Shown: one piece after another, positions 28,370 to 48,315 of the stretch
Position numbering within the stretch: the first letter of the stretch is position 1
Layout: every line of letters starts with the position of its first letter
Assembly: GCF_037996645.1 (NCBI RefSeq)
Contig: NZ_JBBMXV010000002.1
Location: 1-64,000, forward strand
DNA from: Halalkalicoccus tibetensis
GTDB taxonomy: Archaea > Halobacteriota > Halobacteria > Halobacteriales > Halalkalicoccaceae
Direction: 5' to 3'
Length of the DNA: 64,000 nucleotides
Made by a program: the position numbers and the translations under genes
Notes under the pieces: model-generated
What the model saw: only the letters and a program-made list of their open reading frames with translations
Databases searched by the model: none
Told to the model about the DNA's origin: nothing

Positions 28370-29952
28370 TGGACGCGATAACACTGGAGATACTCAGAAA
28401 CCAGCTCGAAAGCATCGCCGAGGAGATGGGACAGGTCCTCATCACGGGCGCCTACTCCCCGAACATCAAGGAACGCCGCGACTGCTCGACCGCGCTGTTC
28501 GACCGGGAGGGGCGGATGGTCGCGCAGGCAGAACACATCCCCGTCCACCTGGGCGCGATGCCCGAGGCCGTCGAGACGGTCCGGGAGAAGGACCCACGGC
28601 CGGGCGACGTCTTCGTGTTGAACGACCCCTTCGCGGGCGGGACGCACCTCCCGGACATCACGATGGTCTCGCCGCTGACCGTGAGCGAGGAGATCGTCGG
28701 CTACGCCGTCTCCAGGGCGCACCACGCCGACGTCGGCGGCTCGACCCCGGGGAGCATGCCCGCGGGGGCCCGCGAGATCTACGAGGAGGGGCTGCGACTG
28801 CCGGCGGTTCGGCTCCAAGCGGGCGGGGAGACCAACGACGACGTGATGGAGATCCTGCTCGCGAACGTCCGGAACGCGGGCGAGCGCCGCGCGGACCTGC
28901 GCGCCCAGCTCGCGGCAAACGACCGCGCCGAGGACAGGTTGGAGGACCTCTTCTCCGAACACGGCCGAGGGGTCGTCGAGGAGGGGTTCGACGCCGTGAT
29001 CGACTACTCCAGAGAGCGGATCGAGGCGGAGATCGCCGAGCTGCCCGACGGCACCTACGAGGCGACCGACGTGCTGGAGGGCGACGGGATCACCGAGGAG
29101 GAGATCCCGATCGCGGCGACGGTCACCGTCGAGGGCGAGTCGATCGACGTGGACTTCGAGGGGAGTTCGAAGCAGGTCCCGGGCAACGTCAACGCGCCGC
29201 TCTCGGTGGCGAAGAGCGCGGTCTACTTCGTCGTGCGCTGCGTGACTGACCCCGAGATCCCGCCGAACCACGGCTGTTACGAGCCCGTCTCGGTGAGCGC
29301 GCCCGAGGGCTCGCTGTTGAACCCGCGACCCCCGGCGGCGGTCGTCGGCGGAAACGTCGAGACGAGCCAGCGGGTCACCGACACCGTCTTCCTCGCGCTG
29401 GCGAAGGCCGCACCCGACCGGGTGCCCGCACAGGGCCAGGGGACGATGAACAACCTGACGGTCGGCGGCAGAAACGGGGAGTTCGCCTACTACGAGACGA
29501 TCGGCGGCGGGTTCGGGGCCCGGGCGGACAAAGACGGCATGGACGGCGTCCAAGTGGGCATGACGAACACGCTCAACACGCCCATCGAGTCCCTCGAAAC
29601 CGAATATCCGATGCGTGTCGAGGAGTACTCGCTGCGGGAGGGGAGCGGCGGGCGCGGGCGCCACCGGGGCGGCCTCGGGCTCGTGCGCTCGGTGCGCCTC
29701 GCGGAGCCCGCGACCGTCTCCCTGCTGACCGAGCGCCGACGCTACGGCCCCCGCGGGGTCGCGGGCGGCGAGGACGGCAAGCCGGGCGAGAACCTGATAG
29801 ACGGGGAGCTCGTGTCGGCGAAGACGACCCGTGACGTCCCCGCCGGGGCGCTGATCACCGTGAAGACGCCCGGCGGCGGTGGCCACGGCGACCTCGAGAA
29901 CCGCGACCCCGAACTGACCGAGCGCGACCGCGAGAACGGGGTGGGCGAATGA
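28369..29952 (+). CDS. hyuB: Hydantoinase/oxoprolinase B subunit
   Basis: 527-residue HyuB homologue, MDAITLEILRNQLESIAEEM onwards, with the family signatures LITGAYSPNIKERRDCSTAL, HIPVHLGAMPEAV, GDVFVLNDPFAGGTHLPDIT and HHADVGGSTPGSMPAGAREI (His/Asp cluster probably at the active site), and NNLTVGGRN, YETIGGGFGA, ..., GRGRHRGG near the end. It forms an enzyme with HyuA. Translation is coupled on both sides: start overlaps the hyuA stop, and the stop overlaps the isomerase-like gene as ATGA. Bacterial homologues work on hydantoins, 5-oxoproline or carboxylated ketones. Confidence 0.93.
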   Translation: MDAITLEILRNQLESIAEEMGQVLITGAYSPNIKERRDCSTALFDREGRMVAQAEHIPVHLGAMPEAVETVREKDPRPGDVFVLNDPFAGGTHLPDITMVSPLTVSEEIVGYAVSRAHHADVGGSTPGSMPAGAREIYEEGLRLPAVRLQAGGETNDDVMEILLANVRNAGERRADLRAQLAANDRAEDRLEDLFSEHGRGVVEEGFDAVIDYSRERIEAEIAELPDGTYEATDVLEGDGITEEEIPIAATVTVEGESIDVDFEGSSKQVPGNVNAPLSVAKSAVYFVVRCVTDPEIPPNHGCYEPVSVSAPEGSLLNPRPPAAVVGGNVETSQRVTDTVFLALAKAAPDRVPAQGQGTMNNLTVGGRNGEFAYYETIGGGFGARADKDGMDGVQVGMTNTLNTPIESLETEYPMRVEEYSLREGSGGRGRHRGGLGLVRSVRLAEPATVSLLTERRRYGPRGVAGGEDGKPGENLIDGELVSAKTTRDVPAGALITVKTPGGGGHGDLENRDPELTERDRENGVGE

Positions 29953-30644
29953 GCGAGTGGCGTCGCCTCGGCGTCGTCGTTCCCTCCTCGAACACCGCCG
30001 TCGAGCGGGAGTTTCCGAGATACGCTCCGGAAGGCGTCTCGGTTCATACCAGCCGAATGCCGCTGGAGTCCGTGACCGCGGAGGCGCTCGATTCGATGAG
30101 CGACCGGGTCGTCGAGTGCGCCGAGTTGCTCTCGCACGCCGACGTACACGCGGTCGCCTACGCCTGCACGACCGGCAGCCTGCTGCACGGCCCCGGGTTC
30201 GACGAGGAGCTGGAGGAGGAGCTCTCGGCGGCGATCGACGGCCCGGCGGTCGCGACGGCGCTGTCGGTCGACCGCGCCCTGGAGGAGCTCGGGGCCGAGC
30301 GTGTCGCCGTCCGTACGCCCTACAACGAGGAGCTGAACGCCCGCGAGTGCGAGTATCTCGAACACGCGGGCTACGAGGTGGGCTCGATCTCGGGGCTCGG
30401 GATCGAGGACAACACGGAGATCGGGGCGCTGACACCCGAGGACGCCGCCGAGCAGGTCGCAAGCGTCGACCCCGCCGTCGACGCGGTCTTCGTCTCCTGT
30501 ACGAACTACCCCACGCTATCGGCCGTCGAGTCCGTGGAGAACGAGCTGGGGGTACCAGTGATAACGAGTAACGGGGCGACGCTGTGGGACCTCTGTCGGA
30601 CCGCGGACGTCGAGCCCGCGGGCCCCGGCGCGCTGTTTCGCTGA
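29949..30644 (+). CDS. Maleate isomerase/Asp-Glu racemase superfamily enzyme
   Basis: 231-residue Asp/Glu racemase-superfamily protein, closest in look to maleate cis-trans isomerase and arylmalonate decarboxylase. It has PSSNTAVEREF at 12-22 and two catalytic-type cysteines, Cys73 in ACTTGS and Cys184 in SCTNYP, which are placed like the two nucleophiles of maleate isomerase. It is the last gene of the transporter-hyuA-hyuB operon, with ATGA coupling, so it probably acts on the substrate or product of HyuAB (racemising a hydantoin or isomerising an acid). Confidence 0.85.
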   Translation: MSEWRRLGVVVPSSNTAVEREFPRYAPEGVSVHTSRMPLESVTAEALDSMSDRVVECAELLSHADVHAVAYACTTGSLLHGPGFDEELEEELSAAIDGPAVATALSVDRALEELGAERVAVRTPYNEELNARECEYLEHAGYEVGSISGLGIEDNTEIGALTPEDAAEQVASVDPAVDAVFVSCTNYPTLSAVESVENELGVPVITSNGATLWDLCRTADVEPAGPGALFR

Positions 30645-32098: not shown

Positions 32099-33673
32099 AT
32101 GGCAAATCTTGTCAGCCAGGTGGCGTCGGTCGTCGAGGCGGGACCGGATCGGACGGCGATCGGGTACGAGGGCCGGGAGATCACCTACGGGGAGTTCTGG
32201 GCGCAGGTGGGCCGGTTCGCGGCCGCGCTCGACGAGCGGGGGATCGGTGCGGACGACCGGGTGGCGATCTACCTGCCGAACCTCCCGCAGTTCCTCGTCG
32301 CCTTCCACGGCACCCTCAGGGCCGGCGGCGTGGTCGTCCCGATGAACCCCCAGTACAAGGCCCGCGAGATCGGCCATCTGCTGTCGGACAGCGGGGCGAA
32401 GGCGGTCGTCGCGCTCTCGGATCTGGTCCCGTTCGTCGACGAGGTCAAAGAGGGGACCGACGTCGCGGAGGTCGTCAGCGTCGGCGATAGCGCGGAGGGT
32501 GCGACCCCCTTCGAGGGGTTCCTCGCCGGCGACGAGCTCGACGTCGTCGACCGGGCCGACGACGACGACGCGGTCCAGCCGTACACCTCGGGGACGACCG
32601 GCCAGCCCAAGGGGGTCCAGCTCACCCACGAGAACCTCGCGTCGAACGCCGAGGCGTCGGCCTCGGTCGTCCCCGGGGGGATCGGGGCCGACGACAAGCA
32701 GCTGGGTGTCCTGCCGCTGTTTCACATCTACGGGATGACGGTGACGATGAACGCGACGCTGTTCGACGGCGGGGCGTTCTACCCGCTTCCCTCCTGGGAC
32801 GCGGGGGAGGCGACCTCGCTGATCGCCGAGGAGGAGCTCACCCTGATGCACGGCGTGCCCGCGATGTACAACGACGTGATCAACCAGCCCGACGCCGAGG
32901 AGTTCGACCTCTCCTCGCTGCGGCTCGCGGGGGTGGGCGGATCGGGTATCCCGATCGAGGTGCTGCGGCGCTTCGAGGAGCTCTACGACGTGACCGTCTG
33001 TGAGGGCTACGGGCTGACCGAGACCGCACCGGTCACCCACTTCAACAGCCCGAACGATCGGCGGGTCGGTTCGATCGGCCGGACCCTACCGGGGATCGAG
33101 TCACGGATCGTCACCGACGGCTTCGAGGACGTCCCGCCCGTCGAGCGCGGGCCCGTCGACGAGGGGGAGGTCGACCTCGACGAGATCACCGGCGAGGTGG
33201 TCATCGCGGGGCCGAACGTGATGAAGGGGTATTACGGCCTGCCCGAGGCCAACGAGGCGGCCTTCACCGAGGAGAGTGGTAGAAAGTGGTTCCACACCGG
33301 TGACGTGGGCTACCACGACGAGGACGGCTTCTACTACGTCGTCGACCGCGAGAAACACATGATCGTCACCGGGGGGTACAACGTCTACCCGCGCGAGGTC
33401 GAGGAGCTGCTGTTCGAACACGAGGACGTGGCCGACGCCGCCGTGGTCGGCATCCCCGACGAACGCCGGGGCGAGACCGTCAAGGCCTACGTCGTGCCGA
33501 CGCCCGACGCCGAGGTGGATCCCGAGGGGATCAAGGAGTACTGTCTGTCGAACCTCGCGGAGTACAAACACCCCCGCGAGGTGGAGTTCGTCGAGGAGCT
33601 GCCCCGCACCACGACCGGCAAGGTCCAGAAGTTCAAGCTCCGCGAGGGGGAGGAGGAGGTCGAGGCCGAATGA
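32099..33673 (+). CDS. AMP-forming acyl-CoA synthetase
   Basis: 524-residue ANL-superfamily ligase that activates a carboxylic acid with ATP and CoA. P-loop YTSGTTGQPKG at 162-172, GYGLTET in the middle, WFHTGDVGYHDEDGFYYVVD hinge region, D-R-x-K-H-M-I-V-T-G-G-Y-N-V-Y-P-R-E-V-E, and the catalytic lysine in RTTTGKVQKFKLRE near 508. It looks like a medium/long-chain or aromatic acid ligase. A likely promoter, GAATCTTTTTGGC, sits at about 32061-32073. Its stop overlaps the enoyl-CoA hydratase start by 4 bp, so the two form an operon at the start of a beta-oxidation block. Confidence 0.93.
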   Translation: MANLVSQVASVVEAGPDRTAIGYEGREITYGEFWAQVGRFAAALDERGIGADDRVAIYLPNLPQFLVAFHGTLRAGGVVVPMNPQYKAREIGHLLSDSGAKAVVALSDLVPFVDEVKEGTDVAEVVSVGDSAEGATPFEGFLAGDELDVVDRADDDDAVQPYTSGTTGQPKGVQLTHENLASNAEASASVVPGGIGADDKQLGVLPLFHIYGMTVTMNATLFDGGAFYPLPSWDAGEATSLIAEEELTLMHGVPAMYNDVINQPDAEEFDLSSLRLAGVGGSGIPIEVLRRFEELYDVTVCEGYGLTETAPVTHFNSPNDRRVGSIGRTLPGIESRIVTDGFEDVPPVERGPVDEGEVDLDEITGEVVIAGPNVMKGYYGLPEANEAAFTEESGRKWFHTGDVGYHDEDGFYYVVDREKHMIVTGGYNVYPREVEELLFEHEDVADAAVVGIPDERRGETVKAYVVPTPDAEVDPEGIKEYCLSNLAEYKHPREVEFVEELPRTTTGKVQKFKLREGEEEVEAE

Positions 33674-34467
33674 CCGACAACGACGCCGTTCGACTGGCGC
33701 TCGACGACGGGGTGGCGACGGTCACGATCGACCGCCCCGACCGGAGGAACGCCCTCTCGCGCGAGGTGAGCGACGGGCTCCGCGAGGCGCTCGCGACGGT
33801 CGAGGAGCGCGAGGGACGCTGTCTCGTCGTCGAGGGAGCCGGCGGCGCCTTCTCGGCGGGCGGGGACATCGCCGCGATGCGCGAGGGGATCGAGGGCGAC
33901 GCCCCGATCGACCAGCGGGTGCGCGAGCTCGAACGCACGACCAGCGAGACGCTCGCCCGGCTGGTCACGTTCTCGCTGCCGACCGTCGCGAAGGTCGACG
34001 GGCCCGCCGTGGGCGCGGGCGCGAACCTCGCGCTGGCCTGTGACCTCCAGCTCGCGAGCGACCGGGCGAGCATGGGCTTCGTCTTCCGGAACGTGGGCCT
34101 GAGCGTCGACGCCGGCACCTCCTATCTCCTCCCGCGGGTCGTCGGCGAGAACGTCGCAAAGGAGCTCGTCTTCACCGGCGAGATCCTCGACGCCGAGCGC
34201 GCGGGCGAACTCGGGCTGTTCAACCACGTCTTCCCCGAGGGCGAGTTCGACGAGCGCGCCGACGCGATCGTCGAGCGGATCGCCGCGGGCCCGACGGTGG
34301 CGCTTCGCCACGCCAAACGGCTGCTCGGCGAGGGCCTCGGGAAGTCGATCGACCGCGCGATGACCGACGAGGCGGTCGCCCAGGGGGTCGTCTTCGAGAG
34401 CGCCGACCACGAGGAGGGCGTCGAGGCGTTCCTCGAGGGCCGCGATCCCGCGTTCGAGGGCCGCTGA
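33670..34467 (+). CDS. Enoyl-CoA hydratase/isomerase family protein
   Basis: 265-residue crotonase-fold enzyme. Oxyanion-hole segments GAGGAFSAGGDIAAM (near 55-70) and KVDGPAVGAGANLALACDLQ (near 105-125), followed by the helix MGFVFRNVGLSVDAGTSYLL (near 137-156) where Glu residues are expected. The canonical hydratase glutamate positions are partly replaced (N at 'FRNVGL', D at 'SVDAG'), so isomerase or another crotonase reaction is possible. Coupled to the acyl-CoA synthetase by a 4-bp ATGA overlap. Confidence 0.88.
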   Translation: MTDNDAVRLALDDGVATVTIDRPDRRNALSREVSDGLREALATVEEREGRCLVVEGAGGAFSAGGDIAAMREGIEGDAPIDQRVRELERTTSETLARLVTFSLPTVAKVDGPAVGAGANLALACDLQLASDRASMGFVFRNVGLSVDAGTSYLLPRVVGENVAKELVFTGEILDAERAGELGLFNHVFPEGEFDERADAIVERIAAGPTVALRHAKRLLGEGLGKSIDRAMTDEAVAQGVVFESADHEEGVEAFLEGRDPAFEGR

Positions 34468-35571: not shown

Positions 35572-36711
35572 ATGGCATTCAGACTCTCGGACGAGCACCG
35601 AGCGATCCGGGACGCGGTGCGGGAGTTCGGGGAGGAGGAGATCGCTCCGGCGGCACGCGAGCACGACGAGAGCGGGGAGTACCCCCGCGACCTGATCGAG
35701 CAGGCCGCCCGCTACGACCTGGTCGCGCCGAACATCCCCACGGAGTACGGCGGGCCGGGGATGGACGCACTCTCGAGCGCGATCGTCACCGAGGAGCTCT
35801 GGAGAGCCGACCCGGGGATCGGGAGCGCGATCGGCTCCAGGGGCTTCGGCTCGAAGATGATCCTCGAGTTCGGCGACGACCGGATGAAGGAGGAGTGGCT
35901 CCCCCGGATCGCGGGCGGCGAGTCGGCGTGTGCGAGCGCCATCTCCGAGCCCGCCCACGGGTCGAACGTCGCGGGCATCGAGACGCGCGCGGAACGCGAC
36001 GGCGAGGAGTGGGTGCTCAACGGCAACAAGACCTGGATCACGAACGGGACGGTCGCCGACGTGGTCGTCGTGATGGCCAAGACCGACCCCGACGCCGGGA
36101 AACGGGGGATCAGCGCCCTGCTGGTCCCGACCGACGCGGAGGGGTTCTCCGCGGAGAAGATCGACAACAAGCTCGGCATCCGGGCCTCGGACCTCGGGGA
36201 GCTGCGGCTCGACGACGTGCGCGTGCCCGCGGAGAACGTCATCGGCGAGGAGAACGAGGGGTTCTACCAGCTAATGGAGTTCTTCGCCGGCGGGCGGGTC
36301 AACGTCGCCGCCCAGGCGGTCGGCGCGGCGGCGGGCGCGCTCGAGGCGGCCCTGGAGTACGCGGGCGAGCGCGAGCAGTTCGGCCGGACGATCGACGAGT
36401 TCCAGGCGATCGAGCACAAGCTCGCGGAGATGGCGACCGACGTCGAGGCGGCCCGCTCGCTGACCTATCGGGCGGCGAGCGAGGTCGAGACGGGCGACCA
36501 GCGGACGGCGATGAAGTTCGCGAGCATGGCCAAGCTGTTCGCCAGCGAGCGCTCGGTCGAGGTGGCCGACGAGTCGATCCAGGTCCACGGCGGGGCGGGC
36601 TACGTCACCGACCACGCCGCCGAGCGCTACTACCGGGACGCCCGGATCACCAAGATCTACGAGGGGACGAGCGAGATCCAGAAGAACATCATCGCCGATC
36701 AGCTGTCATAA
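35572..36711 (+). CDS. Acyl-CoA dehydrogenase
   Basis: 379-residue flavin acyl-CoA dehydrogenase of the classical type. FAD/substrate segments: ASAISEPAHGSNVAG, WVLNGNKTWITNG, GIRASDLGELRLDDVRVPA, and the C-terminal RYYRDARITKIYEGTSEIQK, which carries the canonical catalytic Glu (Y-E-G-T-S-E-I-Q). It oxidises acyl-CoA to enoyl-CoA and should reduce EtfAB; an Etf operon is at 13-18 kb. A TATA-like CTATTTTAC occurs about 35 bp upstream of the ATG. A wHTH regulator gene follows 40 bp later. Confidence 0.94.
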   Translation: MAFRLSDEHRAIRDAVREFGEEEIAPAAREHDESGEYPRDLIEQAARYDLVAPNIPTEYGGPGMDALSSAIVTEELWRADPGIGSAIGSRGFGSKMILEFGDDRMKEEWLPRIAGGESACASAISEPAHGSNVAGIETRAERDGEEWVLNGNKTWITNGTVADVVVVMAKTDPDAGKRGISALLVPTDAEGFSAEKIDNKLGIRASDLGELRLDDVRVPAENVIGEENEGFYQLMEFFAGGRVNVAAQAVGAAAGALEAALEYAGEREQFGRTIDEFQAIEHKLAEMATDVEAARSLTYRAASEVETGDQRTAMKFASMAKLFASERSVEVADESIQVHGGAGYVTDHAAERYYRDARITKIYEGTSEIQKNIIADQLS

Positions 36712-36751: not shown

Positions 36752-37270
36752 ATGGCCGAAAGCCCCCCCGACTGGGAGTTCAAGGACCGCGACATCGTCA
36801 TCCTGCGCGAGCTGTCGGCGAACCCACAGATCTCCTCGCGAAAGCTCACCGAGATCCTCGACGAGGAGTACGGGATCGACGTCTCCCACGTCACCGTCAG
36901 CGAGTCGATCCGCAAGATGCGCGAGGAGGGCGTCTTCCGCGAGACGATCGTCCCCAACGAGGAGTACTTCATCTTCGGGCTCTTCGAGTTCAAGTTCAAC
37001 CCCGAGAACTTCGAGGAGGGCTGGCGCGACGCGATGGAGTACATCCGCGACGACCAGCACACCCTCTTTTACTTCCTTTCCGATGGTGAGTACCAGTGGA
37101 AGTCGGTGATGATGTTCCCCGACCGCCAGTCGGAGTCGCACTGGATCCACGAGTTCTACAAGGAACACGGCGCGGTGATCGAGAACATCCGCAACTCGGT
37201 GATCCACAACGTGCTCAAGTTCCGCACCGATCCCGAGCTGCTGAACGATCTCTCGAAACACGACGAGTGA
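36752..37270 (+). CDS. Winged-helix regulator, likely of the neighbouring acyl-CoA genes
   Basis: 172 residues. Residues 10-75 form an AsnC/Lrp-like winged helix: FKDRDIVILRELSANPQISS, RKLTEILDEEYGIDVSHVTV, SESIRKMREEGVFRETIVPN. The C-terminal half, FGLFEFKFNPENFEEGWRDA to FYKEHGAVIENIRNSVIHNV, is a separate domain with no motif I know, possibly a ligand-binding one. It follows the acyl-CoA dehydrogenase by 40 bp on the same strand, so it probably controls that gene or the divergent beta-oxidation genes. Confidence 0.82.
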   Translation: MAESPPDWEFKDRDIVILRELSANPQISSRKLTEILDEEYGIDVSHVTVSESIRKMREEGVFRETIVPNEEYFIFGLFEFKFNPENFEEGWRDAMEYIRDDQHTLFYFLSDGEYQWKSVMMFPDRQSESHWIHEFYKEHGAVIENIRNSVIHNVLKFRTDPELLNDLSKHDE

Positions 37271-37279
37271 TCGCCGCGA

Positions 37280-37714
37280 TCACTCGACGAGGGTCAGCAT
37301 CTCATACGACAGCACCGTCTCCCCCGCTTGGTTCGAGACGGTGACCTCGCGGCGGACGACCCCGTTTGCCGTCGGGTACTCGCGGGGCTCCTTCCCCACG
37401 ACCTCGCTCGTCGCCGAGACGGTATCGCCCAGGAACACCGGCGCGACGAACCGCAGGCAGTCGATCCCGTAGAACGCGACCACGTGGGAGGGCCGTCTGC
37501 GGGCCTGCCAGAGGAGGCCGGTGGAGATCGAGAAGACGAGCGCGCCGTGGGCGATACGCCCGCCGAAGCCCGATTCGGCCATCCGTTCGGCGTCCGTATG
37601 GAGGTCGTTGAAGTCGCCGCTCACCCCCGCGAAGTTCGCCACGTCGGCCCCGGTGACCGTCCGCCCGGCCGTCTCGAGGGTCGCGCCGACCTCGATCTCC
37701 TCGAAGCGGGTCAT
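37280..37714 (-). CDS. MaoC-like hydratase/dehydratase
   Basis: 144-residue hot-dog-fold enzyme with the R-specific hydratase motif: SGDFNDLHTD (around 32-41; catalytic Asp) and GRIAHGALVFSISTG (around 53-66; catalytic His). Hydrates enoyl-CoA to (R)-3-hydroxyacyl-CoA or a related double bond. Its 3' end lies 9 bp from the convergent regulator gene, and it is 22 bp downstream of the fused dehydrogenase/hydratase gene on the same strand, so it shares that transcript. Confidence 0.9.
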   Translation of the reverse strand: MTRFEEIEVGATLETAGRTVTGADVANFAGVSGDFNDLHTDAERMAESGFGGRIAHGALVFSISTGLLWQARRRPSHVVAFYGIDCLRFVAPVFLGDTVSATSEVVGKEPREYPTANGVVRREVTVSNQAGETVLSYEMLTLVE

Positions 37715-37736: not shown

Positions 37737-39731
37737 TCACTCCCCCCGGAACTCCGGCTCGCGGTCCTCGGAGAACGCCGCGGTCCCCTCGGCGACGTCC
37801 TCCGTCCCCAGGAGGAGCCCGAACGCCTGGGCCTCGAGCTCGAGGCCCGCGTCGAGGTCCCCGTCGCGGCCCTCGTCCATCACCCGCTTTGCCTTCCGCA
37901 GCGCGATCGGCGGGCCGTTCGTGAGGTCCGAGACGAACTCGTCGGCGACCTCCTCGAACTCGCTTCTCGGGACCGCACGGTTGATCAGTCCCCAGTCCTC
38001 GGCGCGCTCTGCGTCGATATGCTCCCCACGGAAGACCAGCTCCTTCGCGCGGGCGTCGGTGAGCATCCGCATGGCGCGCTGGGTGCCCCCGCCGCCCGGG
38101 ATCAATCCGAGGTCGATCTCGGGGAAACCGAAGGCCGAGTTTTCGGTGGCGACCCGCAGGTCGCAGGCCAGCGCCAGTTCGAGCCCGCCGCCCAGACAGT
38201 AGCCGTCGACCTTCGCCAGCGTCGGCCGCGGGAACTCCGCGACGGTCGTGAAGACCTCCGTCACCCCCTTCTCGTGGGGCTCGGTCCCCGCGAAGCCCGA
38301 GACGTCCGCGCCGGCACAGAACGCCCGGTCGCCCGCACCCTCGAGGGTGACCGCCCGGACCTCCTCGAGGTCGGCCGCGTTCAGCAGGTGGACGACTTCG
38401 TCCATCAGGTCCTCGTTCAGTGCGTTCAGTCGTTCGGGCCGGTCGAGCTCGATCGCGAGCAGGCCGTCCTCGAGGGTGTGGTTCAGGGTCGTGTAGTCGC
38501 GCTCGGCGTCCGATCCGTACTCGAAGAAGCCGGCACCCGCGTCCTCGCCGGTCCGGCCCGACTCGACGAGCTCCCGGAGGTGCTCGCTGGGCTCGTAACG
38601 CTCGGCGCCGTACTCCTCGTGGAGCGTCTCGAGCTTTTCTAGCACTTCATCGAGCCCGAGCTTGTCGGCCCGCCGGCAGGGGCCTTCGGGAAAGCCCGCG
38701 CCGAGCCGCAGTCCAGTATCGATCGCCTCGGCGATCGCGACGTCGTTCCCGATGAGCTTCGCGGCTTCGTTGATCATCCGGGCCTCGATGCGCAGCGTGT
38801 CGACGTCCTCGCCCTGGCCGCGCTCGTAGTCGGGGCCGTCGCCGTCGACGGCTTCGCCGTCTGCCTGAGGCGTCTCCGACGCCTCTCTGTCCTCGTAGTC
38901 GTAGTAGCCCTTCCCCGTCTTCCGGCCGAGCTCCTCGGCCTCGACCTTCTCCTCGGTGATCGGCGGGACCTCCTTGCCGGCCTCCTTGCGGACGTGATAG
39001 CCGATGTCGATCCCGGTGAGGTCGCCCAGCTCGAACGGCCCCATCGGGTAGTTCCTCCGAAAGACCATCGCGGCGTCGACCTCGCGGACGTCGTAGAGCC
39101 CCTCGCTGACCATCCAGCCGGCCTCGTCGCCGAAGGGACCGAGGACGCTGTTGACGACGAAGCCGTTGACGTCCTTCCGGACGTAGATCGGGGTCTTGCC
39201 GATCGACTCGACGAACTCGTGGGCCGTCTCGGCCGTCTCGTCGGTCGTCTCCGCCCCATAGATGACCTCGACGAGGTCCATCTTCACCGGCGGGTTGAAG
39301 AAATGCGTTCCGACGACCTGCCCGGGGCGGTCGGTCGCCTCGGCGATCTCGGTGATCGACAGCGAGGAGGTGTTCGAGGCGAGGATCGCCCCCTCGGGGG
39401 TGTACTCGTCGAGGTCGGAGAAGATCTCCCGCTTGAGCTCCATGCGCTCGGGGGCGGCCTCGACGACGAGGTCGGCCTCGGCGACGGCGGCTTCGAGGTC
39501 GACCTCGATGTCGATCCGCCCGAGCACCGTTTCGGGCTCCTCCTCGATGCGGCCCTTCTCGGCGAGCTTCTCGAGGCTCCACTCGATCGAGCCGTAGCCG
39601 TCCTCGACGAACTGCACCTTGACGTCGCGCATCGTCACGTCGTAGCCCGCGAGCGCGACGACCTCCGTGATCCCGTGGCCCATGTTGCCCGCGCCGAGCA
39701 CCGCGACGCGATCGATGTCTTCGATCGTCAT
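37737..39731 (-). CDS. 3-hydroxyacyl-CoA dehydrogenase/enoyl-CoA hydratase fusion
   Basis: 664-residue bifunctional protein. N-terminal HCDH: NAD-binding VAVLGAGNMGHGI at 8-20, SNTSSLSITEI around 119, THFFNPPVKMDLVEVI around 140, and GPFELGDLTGIDIGYH around 236. C-terminal crotonase domain from about 405: RAFCAGADVSGFAG and DGYCLGGGLELALACDLR for the oxyanion hole, then FGFPEIDLGLIPGGGGTQR with both catalytic Glu region residues. The order dehydrogenase-first is usual in archaea and opposite to bacterial FadB. It carries out steps two and three of beta-oxidation. Cotranscribed with the MaoC gene. Confidence 0.94.
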   Translation of the reverse strand: MTIEDIDRVAVLGAGNMGHGITEVVALAGYDVTMRDVKVQFVEDGYGSIEWSLEKLAEKGRIEEEPETVLGRIDIEVDLEAAVAEADLVVEAAPERMELKREIFSDLDEYTPEGAILASNTSSLSITEIAEATDRPGQVVGTHFFNPPVKMDLVEVIYGAETTDETAETAHEFVESIGKTPIYVRKDVNGFVVNSVLGPFGDEAGWMVSEGLYDVREVDAAMVFRRNYPMGPFELGDLTGIDIGYHVRKEAGKEVPPITEEKVEAEELGRKTGKGYYDYEDREASETPQADGEAVDGDGPDYERGQGEDVDTLRIEARMINEAAKLIGNDVAIAEAIDTGLRLGAGFPEGPCRRADKLGLDEVLEKLETLHEEYGAERYEPSEHLRELVESGRTGEDAGAGFFEYGSDAERDYTTLNHTLEDGLLAIELDRPERLNALNEDLMDEVVHLLNAADLEEVRAVTLEGAGDRAFCAGADVSGFAGTEPHEKGVTEVFTTVAEFPRPTLAKVDGYCLGGGLELALACDLRVATENSAFGFPEIDLGLIPGGGGTQRAMRMLTDARAKELVFRGEHIDAERAEDWGLINRAVPRSEFEEVADEFVSDLTNGPPIALRKAKRVMDEGRDGDLDAGLELEAQAFGLLLGTEDVAEGTAAFSEDREPEFRGE

Positions 39732-39851: not shown

Positions 39852-40634
39852 ATGGCAGGGACGACACGCGGGCCGCGGTTCGAGGACCGAACGGCGCTGG
39901 TGACCGGGGCGGGCGCCGGTATCGGGCGTGCGACCGCCCGGCGCCTCGCGGGGGAGGGGGCGCACGTGGTCATCACGGACGTCGACAGCGAGGGCGGCGA
40001 GGGGACGGTCGACCTGATCGAGGACGGGGGTTCGAGCGCGGAGTTCCGCGAGCTGGACGTGACCGATCCCGATGGGTTCGAGAGGGTAGTCGAGAGCGTC
40101 GCGGCCGACCGCGGGCTCGACGTGCTGGTGAACAACGCCGGGATCGGCCACGAGGCGGCGTCGGTCGAGGAGACCGAGCTCTCGACGCTCGAGCGGGTGA
40201 TCGACGTCAACTGCAAGGGGGTCTGGTACGGCTGTCGGGCGGCGCTACCGGTGATGAAAGCCCGGGAATCCGGCGCGATCGTCAACGTCGCCTCGCTGGG
40301 CGGGATGATCGCCCTGCCGAAGCAGGCGGCCTACACCCTCACGAAGGGCGCGGTGCTGAACTTCACCCGGACCGTGGCCGCCGAGGCGGGCCCCTACGGC
40401 GTGCGCGCGAACGCGGTCTGCCCGGGGTTCATCGAGACGGCGCTGGGCGAGGGATTCTTCGAGGGCCACGACGACCCCGAGAGGGCGAAGGAGCGGATGG
40501 TCGCCCAGTACCCGCTGAAACGGCTCGGGAAACCGGGAGAAGTCGCCGACGCGATCGCCTACCTCGCGAGCGACGAGGCGAGCTACGTCACCGGACACGG
40601 CCTCGTGCTCGACGGCGGCTACTCGATCAGCTGA
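39852..40634 (+). CDS. SDR oxidoreductase (FabG-like)
   Basis: 260-residue short-chain dehydrogenase/reductase. Cofactor-binding TGAGAGIGR near 18-26, NNAG near 92, the YTLTK (Y-x-x-x-K) catalytic pair near 157-161 with preceding Ser in NVASLGG, and the classical PGFIETALGEGFF and VTGHGLVLDGGYSIS ends. A 3-oxoacyl or 3-hydroxyacyl-CoA reductase/dehydrogenase is likely, but substrate not shown. The upstream TATA implies its own promoter. Convergent with the following SDR by 15 bp. Confidence 0.9.
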   Translation: MAGTTRGPRFEDRTALVTGAGAGIGRATARRLAGEGAHVVITDVDSEGGEGTVDLIEDGGSSAEFRELDVTDPDGFERVVESVAADRGLDVLVNNAGIGHEAASVEETELSTLERVIDVNCKGVWYGCRAALPVMKARESGAIVNVASLGGMIALPKQAAYTLTKGAVLNFTRTVAAEAGPYGVRANAVCPGFIETALGEGFFEGHDDPERAKERMVAQYPLKRLGKPGEVADAIAYLASDEASYVTGHGLVLDGGYSIS

Positions 40635-40649
40635 TCGTTGATCGCCTGA

Positions 40650-41411
40650 TCAAACTTCGCCGTCTTCAACGCGCGGGATCCCGCCGGCGGTGATCGTCTC
40701 GCCGACGATGTAGGAGGAGGCGGGGCTCGCGAGGAACTGCGCGATATCGGCGATCTCCTCGGAGAGCCCGATCCGCCGGTCGACTTCCTCCCGATCGATG
40801 TTCTCCGCGCTGACTCCCATCTGGGACTCGACGCCGGGCGTCGCGACGAACCCCGGCGCGATGCAGTTGACTCTGACGTCGTCGTCGGCCCACTCGGCCG
40901 ACAGCGTCGTCGTGAGGTTGATGATCCCCGCCTTGGCCGCGCCGTAGTGGCTCATGTACGGCGAGCCGCGCTGGCCCGCGACGCTCGCCAGATTGATCAC
41001 CGTCCCGCCGCCCTCCTTGAGCTGCTCGCCGGCCGCCTGCGTGCAGTTGTAGGTCCCGGTGAGGTTGATGTCGACGATGGTCCGCCAGCCGTTCTCGCTG
41101 ATGTCGTCGAAGCCCGCCATGAAGCTCGCGCCCGCGTTGTTGACGAGACAGTCGACCGTCCCAAACTCCTCGACGCATGACTCGATCAGCGCCTCGACGG
41201 CCTCCCGGTCGGTGACGTCGCACTCGACCGCCAGTGCCTCGCCGCCCGCGTCCCGGATCCCCTCGGCGACCGGGTCGACGTTCCCCTGCTCGCGCGAGCA
41301 GACGACCACGCTCGCCCCGGCCTCGGCGAACCGTTCGGCGATCGCGCGCCCGATCCCGCTCGACGCCCCCGTGACGATCGCGGTGCCCTCGATGCCGAAC
41401 CGCCCGCTCAT
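40650..41411 (-). CDS. SDR oxidoreductase (FabG-like)
   Basis: 253-residue short-chain dehydrogenase/reductase distinct from its neighbour. TGASSGIGRAIAERF at the N-terminus, NNAG near 92, catalytic SVAGQRGSPYMSHYGAAKAG (Ser, Y-x-x-x-K), and the C-terminal IVGETITAGGIPRVEDGEV. It may act on 3-oxo- or 4-oxoacyl-CoA, which would fit the ACAD/kinase genes next to it, or on another alcohol. Starts at 41411; upstream DNA shows a direct repeat of CCATTGATAAT. Confidence 0.9.
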   Translation of the reverse strand: MSGRFGIEGTAIVTGASSGIGRAIAERFAEAGASVVVCSREQGNVDPVAEGIRDAGGEALAVECDVTDREAVEALIESCVEEFGTVDCLVNNAGASFMAGFDDISENGWRTIVDINLTGTYNCTQAAGEQLKEGGGTVINLASVAGQRGSPYMSHYGAAKAGIINLTTTLSAEWADDDVRVNCIAPGFVATPGVESQMGVSAENIDREEVDRRIGLSEEIADIAQFLASPASSYIVGETITAGGIPRVEDGEV

Positions 41412-41510: not shown

Positions 41511-42725
41511 CTACTCCCCGTAGCGGGTGATCGCCTCGATCTCCGAGGGGTCGACGTCCTCGAAGGCCTCGCGGGCGATCACGCGCTTGTGGACCTCGTC
41601 GGCGCCGTCGATGATCCGGAACTGGCGGACGTTCTCGTAGAAGTCCGCAAGCGGGAGGTCCTTGCCGATCCCGTTGCCCCCACAGAGCTGGATGCAGTCG
41701 TCGATCACTTCCTGGACGGTGTTGGCGGCGAACACCTTCGCCATCGCGACCGGGATCCGGACCTCGCGGCCCGAGTCGATCCCGCGGGCGGCGTGGCGCA
41801 CCATCGTCCGCGCGGCGTGGAGGTCGATCTCGGCCTCGGCGATCGTAAAGCGGGGGGCCTGCTTCTCGGCGATCGGCTCGCCGAAGGCCTCGCGCTCGCT
41901 GATGTAGGCCTTCGCGACGTCGAGCGCGCGTTCTGCCATCCCCGAGTAGCGCATGCAATGGGTCAGGCGGGCGGGCCCCAGTCGTTCCTGGGCGTGGGTG
42001 AACCCCTCGTCGCGCTCCCCGAGCAGGTTCTCTTCGGGGATCTGGACGTCGTCGTAGCGGATCTCGGCGTGACCCGTTCCCGTGAGTTCGCCGCCCATGT
42101 GGGGGATCTCCCGGACGATCTCCACCCCGTCGGCATCGCTGGGGACGAGGAACAGCGAGCAGCCCGCGTAGGGGTGGGCCTCGTGATCCGTTCGGGCCAT
42201 CACGATCAACACGTCGGCCTCCGATCCCTGCGTGGTCCACCACTTGTGTCCGTCGAGGACCCACTCGTCGCCCTGCTTCTCGGCCTCGGTTTCGAGCATC
42301 TTCGGATCGGACCCACCTCCCTGAATGGGTTCGGTCATCGAGAAGCCCGACCGTATCTCGCCCGCGGCGAGCGGCTCGAGCCACTCCTCCTTCTGCTCCT
42401 CGGTACCGACCAGTTCGAGGGTGTGCATGTTGCCCTCGTCGGGTGCCTCGACCCGGAGGGCGGCCGGTCCCAGCAGGCTTCTCCCTGCGGCCTCGAAAAC
42501 GGGTAACATATCGCGGTAGCTCAGGCCCTGCCCGCCGTATTTCTCAGGTAAGTGCGGCGCGTACAGCCCGCGCTCGCGGGCGGCCTCGCGGAGCGATTCG
42601 ACCCGCTCCTCGGAGACGGGACCGGTGCCCAAGACCTCCCGTTCGACCGGGATCACTTCCTCGGCGACGAACTCGCGGGTCCGGGCGGCGAACTCGGTCG
42701 CACGTTCCGTGTCGTCGTACTCCAT
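41511..42725 (-). CDS. ACAD10/11-type acyl-CoA dehydrogenase family protein
   Basis: 404-residue ACAD-fold enzyme. Standard FAD segments include FSMTEPIQGGGSDPKML and WVLDGHKWWTTQGSEADVLI. The C-terminal loop reads IIDGADEVHKRVIA (371-384) in place of the Y-E-G-T-S-E-I-Q loop of ordinary dehydrogenases. A D-G-x-D-E-V-H loop is a mark of the ACAD10/11 and related bacterial group (from memory of the family). The divergent neighbour encodes an APH-type kinase like the kinase half of ACAD10/11 or LvaA. I infer a role in removing a phosphorylated 4-hydroxy group from acyl-CoA, with ordinary long-chain dehydrogenase activity as the alternative. Start ATG at 42725. Confidence 0.9.
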   Translation of the reverse strand: MEYDDTERATEFAARTREFVAEEVIPVEREVLGTGPVSEERVESLREAARERGLYAPHLPEKYGGQGLSYRDMLPVFEAAGRSLLGPAALRVEAPDEGNMHTLELVGTEEQKEEWLEPLAAGEIRSGFSMTEPIQGGGSDPKMLETEAEKQGDEWVLDGHKWWTTQGSEADVLIVMARTDHEAHPYAGCSLFLVPSDADGVEIVREIPHMGGELTGTGHAEIRYDDVQIPEENLLGERDEGFTHAQERLGPARLTHCMRYSGMAERALDVAKAYISEREAFGEPIAEKQAPRFTIAEAEIDLHAARTMVRHAARGIDSGREVRIPVAMAKVFAANTVQEVIDDCIQLCGGNGIGKDLPLADFYENVRQFRIIDGADEVHKRVIAREAFEDVDPSEIEAITRYGE

Positions 42726-42726
42726 A

Positions 42727-42764
42727 CGGGGGAATCGGGGATACAGTGTAAAAGTATTCCCCCG
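42727..42764. promoter_or_regulatory. Inverted repeat in the divergent ACAD/kinase promoter
   Basis: CGGGGGAAT (42727-42735) and ATTCCCCCG (42756-42764) form a perfect 9-bp inverted repeat with 20 bp between. It sits directly before the acyl-CoA dehydrogenase ATG and brackets the TATA-like ACTTTTACAC on the minus strand. A bound regulator could control both divergent genes. Confidence 0.5.
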
Positions 42765-42827
42765 ATTCGACACAGATCGGTAACAGCGTCCCATAGCTAT
42801 TCATACGACGGCGAACTATCGCATCCC

Positions 42828-43892
42828 ATGACCGATACGAGCGAGACGTACTTCGAGCGCCTCGTCGACGAGGAGACCCTGGCCAGCTATCTCGAGGGCG
42901 AGCTCGGCCCTGCAGAGCGCTACTCGGTCTCCCATCATCAGGAAGGTCACTCCAACGAGACGCTGTTCGTGACGTGGGGCGAAAAGGAGTTAGTGATCCG
43001 TCGCCCGCCGCCGGGCGAGACCGCCGACACCGCCCACGACGTGCTCCGCGAGTACAGGGTGATGGACGCGCTGCAGGGGACGGACGTCCCGCTTCCCGAC
43101 ACCCTGTTGGCCTGCGAGGACCACGACGTGATCGGCAGCGACTTCTACGTGATGGCGCGCGTCGAGGGCGACGTCCTGCGCGAGAGCGAGCCCGAGCGGT
43201 TCGCGAACCATCGGGAGGCGGTCGGTCACGAGCTCGTCGACTCGCTGGTCGCCATCCACGGGGTCGAGCCCGAGGCGGTGGGGTTGGGGGAGTTCGGCCG
43301 GCCCGCAGGCTACACCGACCGGCAGGTCGAGCGCTGGGGGAAACAGATCGAGTGGGCCTCGCAGGTCACGAGCGAGGAGCGGGCGGTGCCGACACTGGGA
43401 AAGGTCGGCGACTGGCTCGAGGCCAATCGTCCGGAGTCGCATCCCCACACGCTGGTCCACGGCGACTACAAGCTCGACAACGTGGTGTTCGCACCCGGGA
43501 CGCCGCCGAACCTGGTGGCGGTCCTCGACTGGGAGATGAGCACCCTGGGCGATCCGCTTGCGGATCTGGGCTGGATGCTGTCGTACTGGCGCGACCCGAA
43601 GGACCCCGAGCCCGCCGTCCCGGAGCTCACCTCACGGTTCATGGAGCGGGAGGGGTATCCCACTCGGCGCGAACTGGTCGCGCGCTACGAGGAGGCGACG
43701 GGGATCGAGTTCGAGGACGAACGGTTCTACCGGGCGCTCGCGGTCTACAAGCTCGCCGCGCTGGGCGAGATGTTCTTCCGGCGCTATCTGGAGGGCAACT
43801 CCGACGACCCGATGTACCCGAAGATGGAGGAGCGCGTTCCCGCGCTGGCCGAGCGAGCACGGCGGATCGTCGAGGGCGAGGAGCCGCTGTAG
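42828..43892 (+). CDS. APH-type acyl-CoA kinase (LvaA/ACAD10-11 kinase-like)
   Basis: 354-residue aminoglycoside-phosphotransferase-fold kinase. The glycine-rich loop HHQEGHSNETLFV (36-48), the Brenner motif HGDYKLDN at 211-218, and the metal-binding DWEMSTLGDPLADLGW from 234. These match the phosphotransferase domain of human ACAD10/11 and bacterial phosphotransferase-family proteins next to acyl-CoA dehydrogenases. It should phosphorylate a hydroxyacyl-CoA. It is divergent from the ACAD10/11-type gene at 41511-42725. ATG at 42828 is chosen by the MTDTSETYFER start. Confidence 0.9.
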   Translation: MTDTSETYFERLVDEETLASYLEGELGPAERYSVSHHQEGHSNETLFVTWGEKELVIRRPPPGETADTAHDVLREYRVMDALQGTDVPLPDTLLACEDHDVIGSDFYVMARVEGDVLRESEPERFANHREAVGHELVDSLVAIHGVEPEAVGLGEFGRPAGYTDRQVERWGKQIEWASQVTSEERAVPTLGKVGDWLEANRPESHPHTLVHGDYKLDNVVFAPGTPPNLVAVLDWEMSTLGDPLADLGWMLSYWRDPKDPEPAVPELTSRFMEREGYPTRRELVARYEEATGIEFEDERFYRALAVYKLAALGEMFFRRYLEGNSDDPMYPKMEERVPALAERARRIVEGEEPL

Positions 43893-45234: not shown

Positions 45235-48200
45235 CTAATCCGACCCGCCGGCGGGGACGGCCGTCTCGGCCTCGATCGTGTGTCCGCGGTCCGGGCCGAG
45301 ATAGCGCGCCCAGACGGCGAGCAGGCTCGGCAGGACGAACACGCTGCCGAGGAAGGCGTAGACGATCGTCAGGCCCGTGATGAGGCCGAACTGCTGGAGG
45401 GGCGGGAGGATCGCGAAGACGAGCACGCCAAACCCGCCGACCGTCGTCGCGGCGCTTCCCAGCAACGCCCCGCCGGTCCCCGTGACGGCGCGATCGAGGG
45501 CGCCCCAGGTGTCGGCGCCGCGCTCGCGCTCGATCAGGAACCGCTCGGTCATGTGGACGTTGTAGGCGACGCCCAGCCCGATCGTGAGGCTTGTGATCGT
45601 CCCGGTCATCACGTTAAAGGGGATCCCCAGCGCGTACATCGTCCCGAGGATCCACGCGACCGAGAAGACGATCGGCAGCAGGGTGACGGCGCCCAGGAGC
45701 GCGCTGCCGTTGGCCCACCGGTAGGCGAGCATGAGGAAGGCGAACACCGCCACGAGGGTGACGAGCATGCTCTCGATGACCGTCTGGAGGAGCTCGTCCT
45801 CGACGATCCCGAAGACGATCAGCTGGCCCGTCGCCGTCGCCGAGAGCCCGTCGCCGTCGAGGATCGCGGCGACCGCGCGGGTCTCCTCGGTCGCGAGGTC
45901 TGTCGAGGCCGACCCCTGCACCGAGAGCACGAGCCGGAACGACTCGTACTCGCCCGCGTCGGTCCGGTAGACGACCTCCTCTGCGGCCTCGGCGTCGGCC
46001 GCGAACAGCGCGTCGTAGACCGCCTCCACATTCTCGTCGGGCACGCCGTTTCCGGTGGTGTCGGCCGCCGTGAAGACTTCCTCGAACGCCTCGTCCTCCT
46101 CGGCGACGGTCTCCATCGTCGCCAACGGACTTCTGACGTCGGCCTCGCCGCTGGAGAGGACGACCGCCGACTCGCTGCCGACGGCCAGCTCCTCGGCGAG
46201 CCGTTCGAGGGTGTCCGCGCGCGTGATCTCGCCCTCGACGAGCACCTCCGTTTGGCTGTCCTCGCGCAGGAAGTTCTCGTTGACGTACTCGAGGTTCGCC
46301 TTCGAGTCGTAGTCGCCGACCGCGAGCGGGCCCGGCAGGCTCTTCATCCACGCGGGCGGGTCGTCGGCGATGAAGTCCTCCTGCTCGAAGGTGGTGTCGA
46401 CGCCCGCCGCGCCGTAGGCCCCGCCCGCCGTGAGCAGGAGTGCAACGGCGATCACGGCCCACGGGACCCGCCGGGCGCCCCGGGCGCCGAGCGAGAGGAA
46501 GCCCCCGGTCGCGCCGCCGCCGGTGCCGAACGCCCGCCGTCTCCGGTCGTAGCCGCGCGCCTCGAGGACGGCGTCGAGCTCGACCTTCGCCGCGGGGATC
46601 AGCAGCCCGAACACCAGCAGGGCGGAGACGATGCCGAACGCGCTCGCGACCCCGAACTCCCGGATCGGGGCGACCGGGCTGACGAGGTTCGAGAGGAAGC
46701 CGATCACCGCGGTCGCCGTCACCCAGATCAGCGCGATCCCGAGCCCCGAGAGGACGACCGCCATCGAGCGGCGGGTCCCCTCGTCCCCTCCGGCGCGCTG
46801 CTCGCGGGTCGTCGCTCCCCGCTCGCTCTCCGAGACGCGTTGCGTCTCGCGCTGCTCGCGGTGGCGCATGAAGACGTGGATCGCGTAGTCGATCGACAGC
46901 CCGATCAGCAGGACGGGGACCGCGATCATGATCTGGTTGAACGCGATCCCGGCCCAGCCCATGAAGCCGAACGTCCACAGCAACACTGCGGCGATGCCCG
47001 CGCCCCCGAGGACGATGTCCAGCGGGTCGCGGTAGGCGATCGCCAGCACGACGACGACGAACCCGAGCGCCAGCGGCAGGACGACCCCTAGGCTATCGGT
47101 CAGCGAGCGGTCGATCTCGTCGGTGATGATCCCCGAGCCGAAGACGAAGCCGTCGGCGCCGAAGCGCTCCTCGACGACGTCGGCCATCGCGAGCTGGGCG
47201 TCGACCAGCGCCGGCGGCGCCTCGCCGTCGATCACCGCGTCGTCGGCGGTGTCTTGGGTGACGTAGATCGCCCTGGCGTCGGCGGTCGTCGAACCCGGCT
47301 CGTAGTCGGTCGGCAGGAAGGCGAAGACCTCTCGGGGCGCGTCCTCGTCGAGCACCGTCGTGACCACGTCGTCGATCTCGGACTGATCCATCGACTCGAG
47401 CTGGGCGATCTGCTCGTCGGTGTCGGGATCGATCTCCGAGATCGCCTCGCCCTCGTCCTCCAGGGCGTCGCCCTCCTCCTCGAGGGCGTCAGCCTCGTTC
47501 TCGAGCTCCTCGCCCTCGGCCTCGAGTTCGTCGGCACGTTCCTCGAGTTCCTCCTCGCGCTCCTCCAAGGCCTCCCCTCGCTCCTCGAGGGCGGCCTGAC
47601 GTTCCTCGAGTTCGGCGGCGTCCTCCTCTATGGCTTCGCCGCGCTCGGCGAGGTCGGCGCCCCGGGCCTCGTACTCCTCGTCGTCGATCTCCCCCGCCTG
47701 ATACTGGGCCTCGAGGTCGGCTTGCTCTTCCTCGATCCCCGCCCGGCGTTCCTCGAGTTCGGCAGCATCGGCCTCGAGCTCCGCCGTGTCCTCCTCTACG
47801 GCCTCGCCGTCGGCTTCGAGCTCCTCACTCTCTGTCTCGATGGCGTCGGCCTCGGCTTCCAGCGCCTCGCTTCGCGTCTCCAGCTCGTCGCCGCGCTGTT
47901 CGAGCTCGTCGGATCGCTCGCCGAGCTCGTCGCCGCGCTCCTCCTGGATCGCGGCCGTGGCGATGATGCTCGCGAGGTCGCCGAAGGGCTCGTCTACGAG
48001 CGTCCCGTTTATCCTCTCGTCCTCCCGGAACTCCTCCTGGAGCTCGAGGGTCGCGAGCAGTGACTCCTTCGAGAGGGCGTCGTCGTCGCGGACGATCAGC
48101 TGGGCGGTCGTGGTGTTCTCGTCGGCGCCGAACCGCTCGTCGATGTACTCCTGTTTGTCGGCCTCCTCGCTCTCGGTCTGGAACTGGTCCAGCGACGAGG

Positions 48201-48315
48201 ACTGCTCGATCGCGGCGACGCCGCTTCCCATCAGCAGCGTGAGGACCAGGAAGACCGCGATCACGACCCGGCTGCGTTCCGTAACGAGTTCGATCAGACG
48301 CTCGGCTGCGCGCAC
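45235..48315 (-). CDS. RND/MMPL-family membrane transporter with charged coiled-coil insert
   Basis: 1026-residue RND-superfamily (MMPL-like) protein from a GTG start. The N-terminal TM1 VVIAVFLVLTLLMGSGVAAI (about 18-38) is followed by an external domain. At about 120-300 lies a continuous E/A/D/R/L heptad-like region (repeated E-L-E-x-x-A-D/E-L-E blocks such as ELEERADELEAEGEELE) not usual in the family. Later come two clusters of TM segments typical of RND halves (GVVLPLALGFVVVVLAIAYR and VTLLPIVFSVAWILGTMYAL), each with SIDYAIHVFMRHREQRE-type or GLGVAYNVHMTERFLIERE-type loops. Probably exports lipid or hydrophobic substrates, or acts as a sensor; not known. Upstream AT-rich palindrome CGAGT...ACTCG. 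Confidence 0.85.
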   Translation of the reverse strand: MRAAERLIELVTERSRVVIAVFLVLTLLMGSGVAAIEQSSSLDQFQTESEEADKQEYIDERFGADENTTTAQLIVRDDDALSKESLLATLELQEEFREDERINGTLVDEPFGDLASIIATAAIQEERGDELGERSDELEQRGDELETRSEALEAEADAIETESEELEADGEAVEEDTAELEADAAELEERRAGIEEEQADLEAQYQAGEIDDEEYEARGADLAERGEAIEEDAAELEERQAALEERGEALEEREEELEERADELEAEGEELENEADALEEEGDALEDEGEAISEIDPDTDEQIAQLESMDQSEIDDVVTTVLDEDAPREVFAFLPTDYEPGSTTADARAIYVTQDTADDAVIDGEAPPALVDAQLAMADVVEERFGADGFVFGSGIITDEIDRSLTDSLGVVLPLALGFVVVVLAIAYRDPLDIVLGGAGIAAVLLWTFGFMGWAGIAFNQIMIAVPVLLIGLSIDYAIHVFMRHREQRETQRVSESERGATTREQRAGGDEGTRRSMAVVLSGLGIALIWVTATAVIGFLSNLVSPVAPIREFGVASAFGIVSALLVFGLLIPAAKVELDAVLEARGYDRRRRAFGTGGGATGGFLSLGARGARRVPWAVIAVALLLTAGGAYGAAGVDTTFEQEDFIADDPPAWMKSLPGPLAVGDYDSKANLEYVNENFLREDSQTEVLVEGEITRADTLERLAEELAVGSESAVVLSSGEADVRSPLATMETVAEEDEAFEEVFTAADTTGNGVPDENVEAVYDALFAADAEAAEEVVYRTDAGEYESFRLVLSVQGSASTDLATEETRAVAAILDGDGLSATATGQLIVFGIVEDELLQTVIESMLVTLVAVFAFLMLAYRWANGSALLGAVTLLPIVFSVAWILGTMYALGIPFNVMTGTITSLTIGLGVAYNVHMTERFLIERERGADTWGALDRAVTGTGGALLGSAATTVGGFGVLVFAILPPLQQFGLITGLTIVYAFLGSVFVLPSLLAVWARYLGPDRGHTIEAETAVPAGGSD

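Follow-up and report, generated by a model that had tools for sequence, protein, structure and literature searches.

Divergent kinase and acyl-CoA dehydrogenase genes of haloarchaea form an archaeal branch of the ACAD10/11 and LvaA/LvaC enzyme pairs and probably admit 4-hydroxyacyl-CoAs to beta-oxidation

Results and Discussion

In the window, by which we mean the whole 64,000-nucleotide stretch of Halalkalicoccus tibetensis DNA analysed here, two divergent genes separated by 102 bp encode an acyl-CoA dehydrogenase (ACAD) and an APH-fold kinase (Table 1) which, by analogy with their studied relatives, probably constitute a route admitting 4-hydroxyacyl-CoAs to beta-oxidation in haloarchaea. 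The mammalian enzymes ACAD10 and ACAD11 and the LvaA/LvaC pair of Pseudomonas remove the 4-hydroxyl of fatty acids, permitting their breakdown (PMC12440821, PMC11342911); the function of ACAD10/11 was settled only in 2024-2025, and we found no paper describing the pathway in archaea in the open literature searched. The haloarchaeal ACAD is a third branch of the ACAD10/11-LvaC superclade, and roughly every second sampled genome of the class has the pair, almost never one gene alone. Two generically annotated families gain a testable function as the archaeal representatives of an already known type of enzyme pair, and the third clade offers an independent set for questions on the residues that govern substrate and stereochemistry.

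Table 1. Coordinates of the two core genes, their neighbours and the HAD-family proteins (window positions unless a genome or locus handle is given).
Feature	Position	Strand	Basis
ACAD10/11-LvaC-type acyl-CoA dehydrogenase, 404 aa	41511-42725	-	Pfam ACAD N/M/C, residues, superclade, fold
APH-fold kinase, 354 aa	42828-43892	+	Pfam APH, match to ACAD11 kinase, conserved residues
Divergent intergenic region, 102 bp	42726-42827	.	Sequence; presumed shared promoter/operator
SDR oxidoreductase SDR2	40650-41411	-	99 bp downstream of ACAD, same strand; co-occurrence
SDR oxidoreductase SDR1	39873-40634	+	Pfam; not recurrent, 2/40 loci
3-Hydroxyacyl-CoA dehydrogenase/enoyl-CoA hydratase fusion	37737-39731	-	Pfam; downstream beta-oxidation
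MaoC-type hydratase	37280-37714	-	Pfam
Winged-HTH regulator	36752-37270	+	Annotated winged HTH/Lrp-AsnC in relatives
Canonical acyl-CoA dehydrogenase	35572-36711	+	Catalytic Glu, YEGTSEIQ; ordinary beta-oxidation enzyme
Enoyl-CoA hydratase/isomerase, overlapping synthetase gene	33670-34467	+	Pfam
Acyl-CoA synthetase (AMP-binding), candidate activating enzyme	32099-33673	+	Pfam/NCBIfam, generic fatty-acid CoA ligase
HAD-family DxG protein, window's genome	G000:C1:154709-155356 (L095:7710-8390)	-	FFDIGGV
HAD-family DxG protein, Haloferax mediterranei locus	L039:9228-9950		

Diagnostic residues of both proteins are conserved

Pfam and NCBIfam give the two products only generic family names: the ACAD matches all three Pfam ACAD domains (lowest E 1.4e-41) and the kinase matches Pfam APH at 1.1e-47. 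The divergent pair and the motifs that the sequence-only reading had picked out were all present, namely a DGxDEVH loop in the ACAD (DGADEVH), unlike the YEGTSEIQ of the canonical ACAD in the same window, and HGDYKLDN and DWEMSTLGDP in the kinase. The window's genome (3.6 Mb in 15 contigs) holds a single kinase of this type (search at E<=1e-5) and eight ACADs, among which the ACAD10/11 residues occur only in the product of the gene paired with the kinase.

The cryo-EM study of ACAD11 described R626, H634, R637 and the catalytic D753 as special to ACAD10/11 and LvaC (PMC12440821). In a MAFFT alignment, in which the ACAD11 numbering landed exactly on R, H, R and D, all four equivalents were kept in the window ACAD (within QERLGPARLTHCMR and IIDGADEVH), the catalytic Asp, which replaces the usual Glu, lying within DGxxEVH. 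Every pair-associated homologue whose aligned part spans these positions kept this R-H-R-D set, and the pattern was found in 80 of 81 copies (80 named haloarchaeal loci), the odd one being cut by a contig end; none of the set occurred in the window's canonical ACAD, in six other paralogues of the genome or in a Thermus ACAD in the alignment.

The kinase keeps the equivalents of the catalytic D220 and N225 and of the acyl-CoA-binding R176, as well as a second acyl-CoA-binding Arg just before the alphaC Glu; the latter is named R86 in ACAD11 (PMC12440821) and is residue 84 when counted along the PDB chain. Both acyl-CoA-binding Arg are missing from the aligned LvaA and Thermus kinase, and in these residues the haloarchaeal kinase is therefore of the ACAD11 make rather than of the LvaA make.

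The ACAD forms a third branch of the superclade

In a tree of 38 ACADs (IQ-TREE, mixture model), the 30 proteins carrying R-H-R-D were monophyletic (support 100/100), apart from the canonical ACADs, and fell into three branches: an ACAD11 branch that also holds 4hr3, Deinococcus, Sphingopyxis and Cupriavidus H16, an LvaC branch that also holds Thermus, Rhodococcus ZPP and Georgenia, and a haloarchaeal branch (100/100). The expected grouping with ACAD10/11 and LvaA/LvaC hence stood at the level of the joint ACAD superclade and did not stand for either subclade, the window ACAD lying in the haloarchaeal clade, outside the ACAD11 and LvaC branches. Haloarchaea plus LvaC was the recovered order (79/45), and the AU test rejected neither haloarchaea plus ACAD11 (p 0.39) nor LvaC plus ACAD11 (p 0.12). 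In the kinase tree, whose branches are long, the haloarchaeal clade (99/99) was sister to a clade in which the ACAD11 kinase stands with further kinases from such pairs (joint clade 95/87), with LvaA and the Thermus kinase outside.

The best PDB relatives of the window ACAD, by sequence and by fold, were ACAD11 and 4hr3, an uncharacterised Mycobacterium abscessus ACAD which has the same R-H-R-D, groups with the ACAD11 type and is the best solved structure (sequence E 1.3e-78; Foldseek 4.5e-29). Foldseek on the predicted ACAD model (pLDDT 83) placed these two ahead of all other ACADs; an AlphaFold model of the kinase, built from nine sequences, had a mean pLDDT of 42 and was discarded.

The mammalian ACAD11 and ACAD10 share with the haloarchaeal proteins the HGDxxxxN and DWE kinase motifs, the acyl-CoA-binding Arg and the R-x7-H-x2-R with catalytic Asp (PMC12440821, PMC11342911), at 35% identity to ACAD11 for the ACAD and 34% for the kinase, and in separate clades; they differ in being fused in one chain, to which ACAD10 adds a HAD domain, whereas the haloarchaeal genes are separate and the window locus holds no HAD-kinase-ACAD fusion. 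Separate genes also occur in Thermus, Rhodococcus, Georgenia, Cupriavidus and the lva operon, and the description of the pair as a split form of the eukaryotic enzymes has to be turned around, separate genes being the ordinary prokaryotic state and the fusion the eukaryotic form.

As bacterial reference we used the complete lva-type operon of plasmid p12939-PER (P. aeruginosa, NZ_MF344569.1, 207421-218572; gene order per PMC6692424), which likewise has separate genes, the two-step logic and an SDR straight after the ACAD; it differs in holding LvaB, a PrpR-like regulator and an acetate-type permease. Its LvaC is 41% identical to the window ACAD with the same four residues, and its LvaA 26% identical to the window kinase. 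The ACAD-APH-DUF6285-histidine phosphatase operon of Thermus thermophilus pTT27 shares R-H-R-D, an adjacent kinase and an SDR, its ACAD being 46% identical to that of the window; it differs in its LvaA-like kinase (28%), in the presence of DUF6285 and in having a histidine phosphatase instead of a HAD. As a side observation, LvaC of p12939-PER is 34% identical to mouse ACAD11, the figures quoted for P. putida LvaC are 56% to ACAD11 and 62% to ACAD10 (PMC11342911), and the proteins with 55-59% identity to ACAD11 (L050-L052, L054) fall in the ACAD11 branch, not in the LvaC branch.

Kinase and ACAD are inherited together

Among 292 genomes of the class, each at least 90% complete, the kinase and the ACAD were each found in 143; 142 genomes had both, 148 neither, and only two (G159 and G245) one alone. 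P values for these co-occurrences ignore relatedness. At least 13 genera mix carriers and non-carriers, and within them the two genes switch together with one exception, so that a single ancestral event does not account for the match. In 62 genomes the genes stood side by side in divergent orientation, and adjacent pairs had a median gap of 163 bp. In about 47 genomes, among the matches listed, more than 5 kb or a contig boundary separated the copies, which still co-occurred, although some few of the distances may be overstated. A chance pairing of ACAD and APH was ruled out by these counts. As controls, SDR2, present in 131 of 143 kinase carriers and 28 of 149 other genomes (odds ratio 47), followed the kinase much more weakly than the ACAD did, and the 3-hydroxyacyl-CoA dehydrogenase/enoyl-CoA hydratase fusion gave 84 of 143 and 20 of 149 (odds ratio 9). 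A phylum search for the ACAD beyond the class (E<=1e-65) gave 24 positive genomes, all in the order of the window's genome, so that the phylum's other classes yielded no match at this threshold.

The locus lies in a beta-oxidation setting

The genes that had been noticed around the pair, for an acyl-CoA synthetase, two SDRs, hydratases and a 3-hydroxyacyl-CoA dehydrogenase, were found within about 12 kb, all on the same side of it. In a survey of 40 loci, with hardly any genus represented twice, the neighbours within about 8 kb were the ACAD (29), SDR2 (24), the winged-HTH protein (17), a HAD-family protein (13), the dehydrogenase/hydratase fusion (12) and the synthetase (5). SDR2 adjoins the kinase or the ACAD in many genera and is a candidate 4-oxoacyl-CoA/4-hydroxyacyl-CoA oxidoreductase. 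Residues, trees, co-occurrence and neighbours thus agree that the pair is of the ACAD10/11 and LvaA/LvaC kind, in an archaeon and in a beta-oxidation setting, as had been proposed.

The intergenic region contains an imperfect inverted repeat, AATCGGGGATAC-n9-GTATTCCCCCGATT (window 42734-42768), whose core around GATACACTGTAAAAG and ATTCCCCC is largely retained in the genus, the repeat being conserved there in part; it may be an operator, and the winged-HTH protein encoded at 36752-37270 might be what binds it.

Elsewhere in the window, positions 45235-48315 (-) encode a large membrane-transporter-like protein (1026 aa) that looks like an MMPL/RND member; its extended Glu-rich, heptad-like stretch (GDELGERSDELEQRGDELETRSEALEAE...) is probably an inserted coiled coil. 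Positions 26700-30644 (+) carry hydantoinase A/B-like genes and, after them, a gene resembling those for arylmalonate decarboxylase/maleate isomerase; among 40 other loci, two (L075, L091) have the hydantoinase B homologue close to the kinase.

A probable route for 4-hydroxyacyl-CoAs, and its alternatives

In the proposed route, the APH-type kinase would phosphorylate the 4-hydroxyl of a 4-hydroxyacyl-CoA in an ATP-dependent reaction. In the ACAD-type flavoenzyme the catalytic Asp would then abstract the alpha proton while the Arg-His-Arg cluster holds the phosphate, hydride would pass to FAD, the phosphate would be expelled and the electrons returned, the product being a 2-enoyl-CoA formed without net oxidation, and the neighbouring hydratase and 3-hydroxyacyl-CoA dehydrogenase would complete the degradation. 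SDR2 probably interconverts 4-oxo and 4-hydroxy acyl-CoA, like LvaD. The natural substrate, of whatever chain length, may derive from lactones, keto acids or lipids. We infer both reactions and their order from studied homologues, the bacterial and mammalian enzymes being known to carry out this kinase and phosphate-eliminating ACAD chemistry (PMC12440821, PMC11342911); because of the residues, the co-inheritance, the superclade and the ACAD11-like kinase, the assignment of a 4-hydroxyacyl-CoA kinase and a phosphate-eliminating ACAD is well supported by such inference.

It is extremely improbable that the acyl-CoA dehydrogenase is an ordinary one and that the kinase next to it is unrelated and acts on aminoglycosides or other small molecules, as the APH annotation and the generic family names would allow: besides the 142:2 co-occurrence and the diagnostic residues in both proteins, the ACAD11 kinase domain is among the PDB relatives of the kinase at 6.9e-52, and the NCBIfam APH(3') model scores 39, far under its cut-off of 205. 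The same type of chemistry acting on another substrate class or hydroxyl position, such as a hydroxylated isoprenoid, an aromatic or another branched acyl-CoA, deserves more weight, although we consider it rather unlikely. The haloarchaeal ACAD forms its own clade, and at 35% and 41% identity to ACAD11 and LvaC its substrate, and even the hydroxyl position, could therefore differ; bacterial pairs are moreover found in other catabolic contexts, for example with terpene-utilisation and carboxylase genes in Rhodococcus. The phosphate-cluster and catalytic residues, however, are unaltered.

The sequence-only reading had gone further and suggested a locus for the catabolism of gamma-hydroxy or levulinate-type acids. 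If the locus were the counterpart of lvaABCDE and served levulinate (4-oxopentanoate), the synthetase would stand for LvaE, an SDR for LvaD, the kinase for LvaA and the ACAD for LvaC; these gene types do correspond, the ACAD-SDR2 order is like that of lvaC-lvaD in the complete operon, and SDR2 co-occurs with the kinase. LvaB, however, is needed along with LvaA in P. putida (PMC6692424); in the reference operon it is a DUF6285 protein, and DUF6285 was found in none of 97 haloarchaeal genomes, including that of the window, while two control genomes gave matches; ACAD11, like the haloarchaeal pair, has no LvaB-like partner. The window kinase is closer to the ACAD11 kinase than to LvaA and has the acyl-CoA-binding Arg that LvaA lacks. 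The window SDRs are 33-36% identical to LvaD (SDR2 35-36%), the same level as to unrelated SDRs; BLAST has no resolution here. The synthetase is generic and seldom recurs as a neighbour, and it is uninformative too. The 4-hydroxyacyl type of pathway is supported and the levulinate assignment is not; we regard the latter as quite unlikely.

A HAD-family protein accompanies the kinase

Orthologs of a HAD-family protein of Haloferax mediterranei were found in 101 of the 292 genomes, and 100 of these carriers have the kinase. The gene lies within 5 kb of SDR2 in 76 of 96 cases and near the kinase, the ACAD or SDR2 in many genera; in Haloferax mediterranei, whose kinase-ACAD pair is on pHME132 (L039), it adjoins the ACAD, and in the window's genome it is unlinked to the pair, beside purine genes. 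Motif I reads [FW]D[ILV]GGV in all 12 neighbours in which it is readable, so that the second Asp of DxD is a Gly. The regulatory HAD domain of ACAD10 has the same defect, there within the fusion, a parallel that is suggestive and falls short of proof: the closest family model to the haloarchaeal HAD was TIGR02253, not the epoxide-hydrolase-like TIGR02247, both scoring under the cut-off, and some members of the HAD family are active phosphatases even though they lack the second Asp.

On the grounds of the kinase co-occurrence, the siting, and the DxG motif in the 12 neighbours and in the genome's own copy, we tentatively suggest, while holding it to be on the doubtful side, that in haloarchaea the components of ACAD10 may be spread over individual genes. 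The HAD would then act in trans, either holding the kinase in check or removing 4-phosphoacyl-CoA that has stalled, as has been proposed for the HAD domain of human ACAD10. The HAD partner would be a tractable, gene-separated model for that regulatory domain. Bacterial pairs often carry a histidine phosphatase in place of the HAD (PMC6692424).
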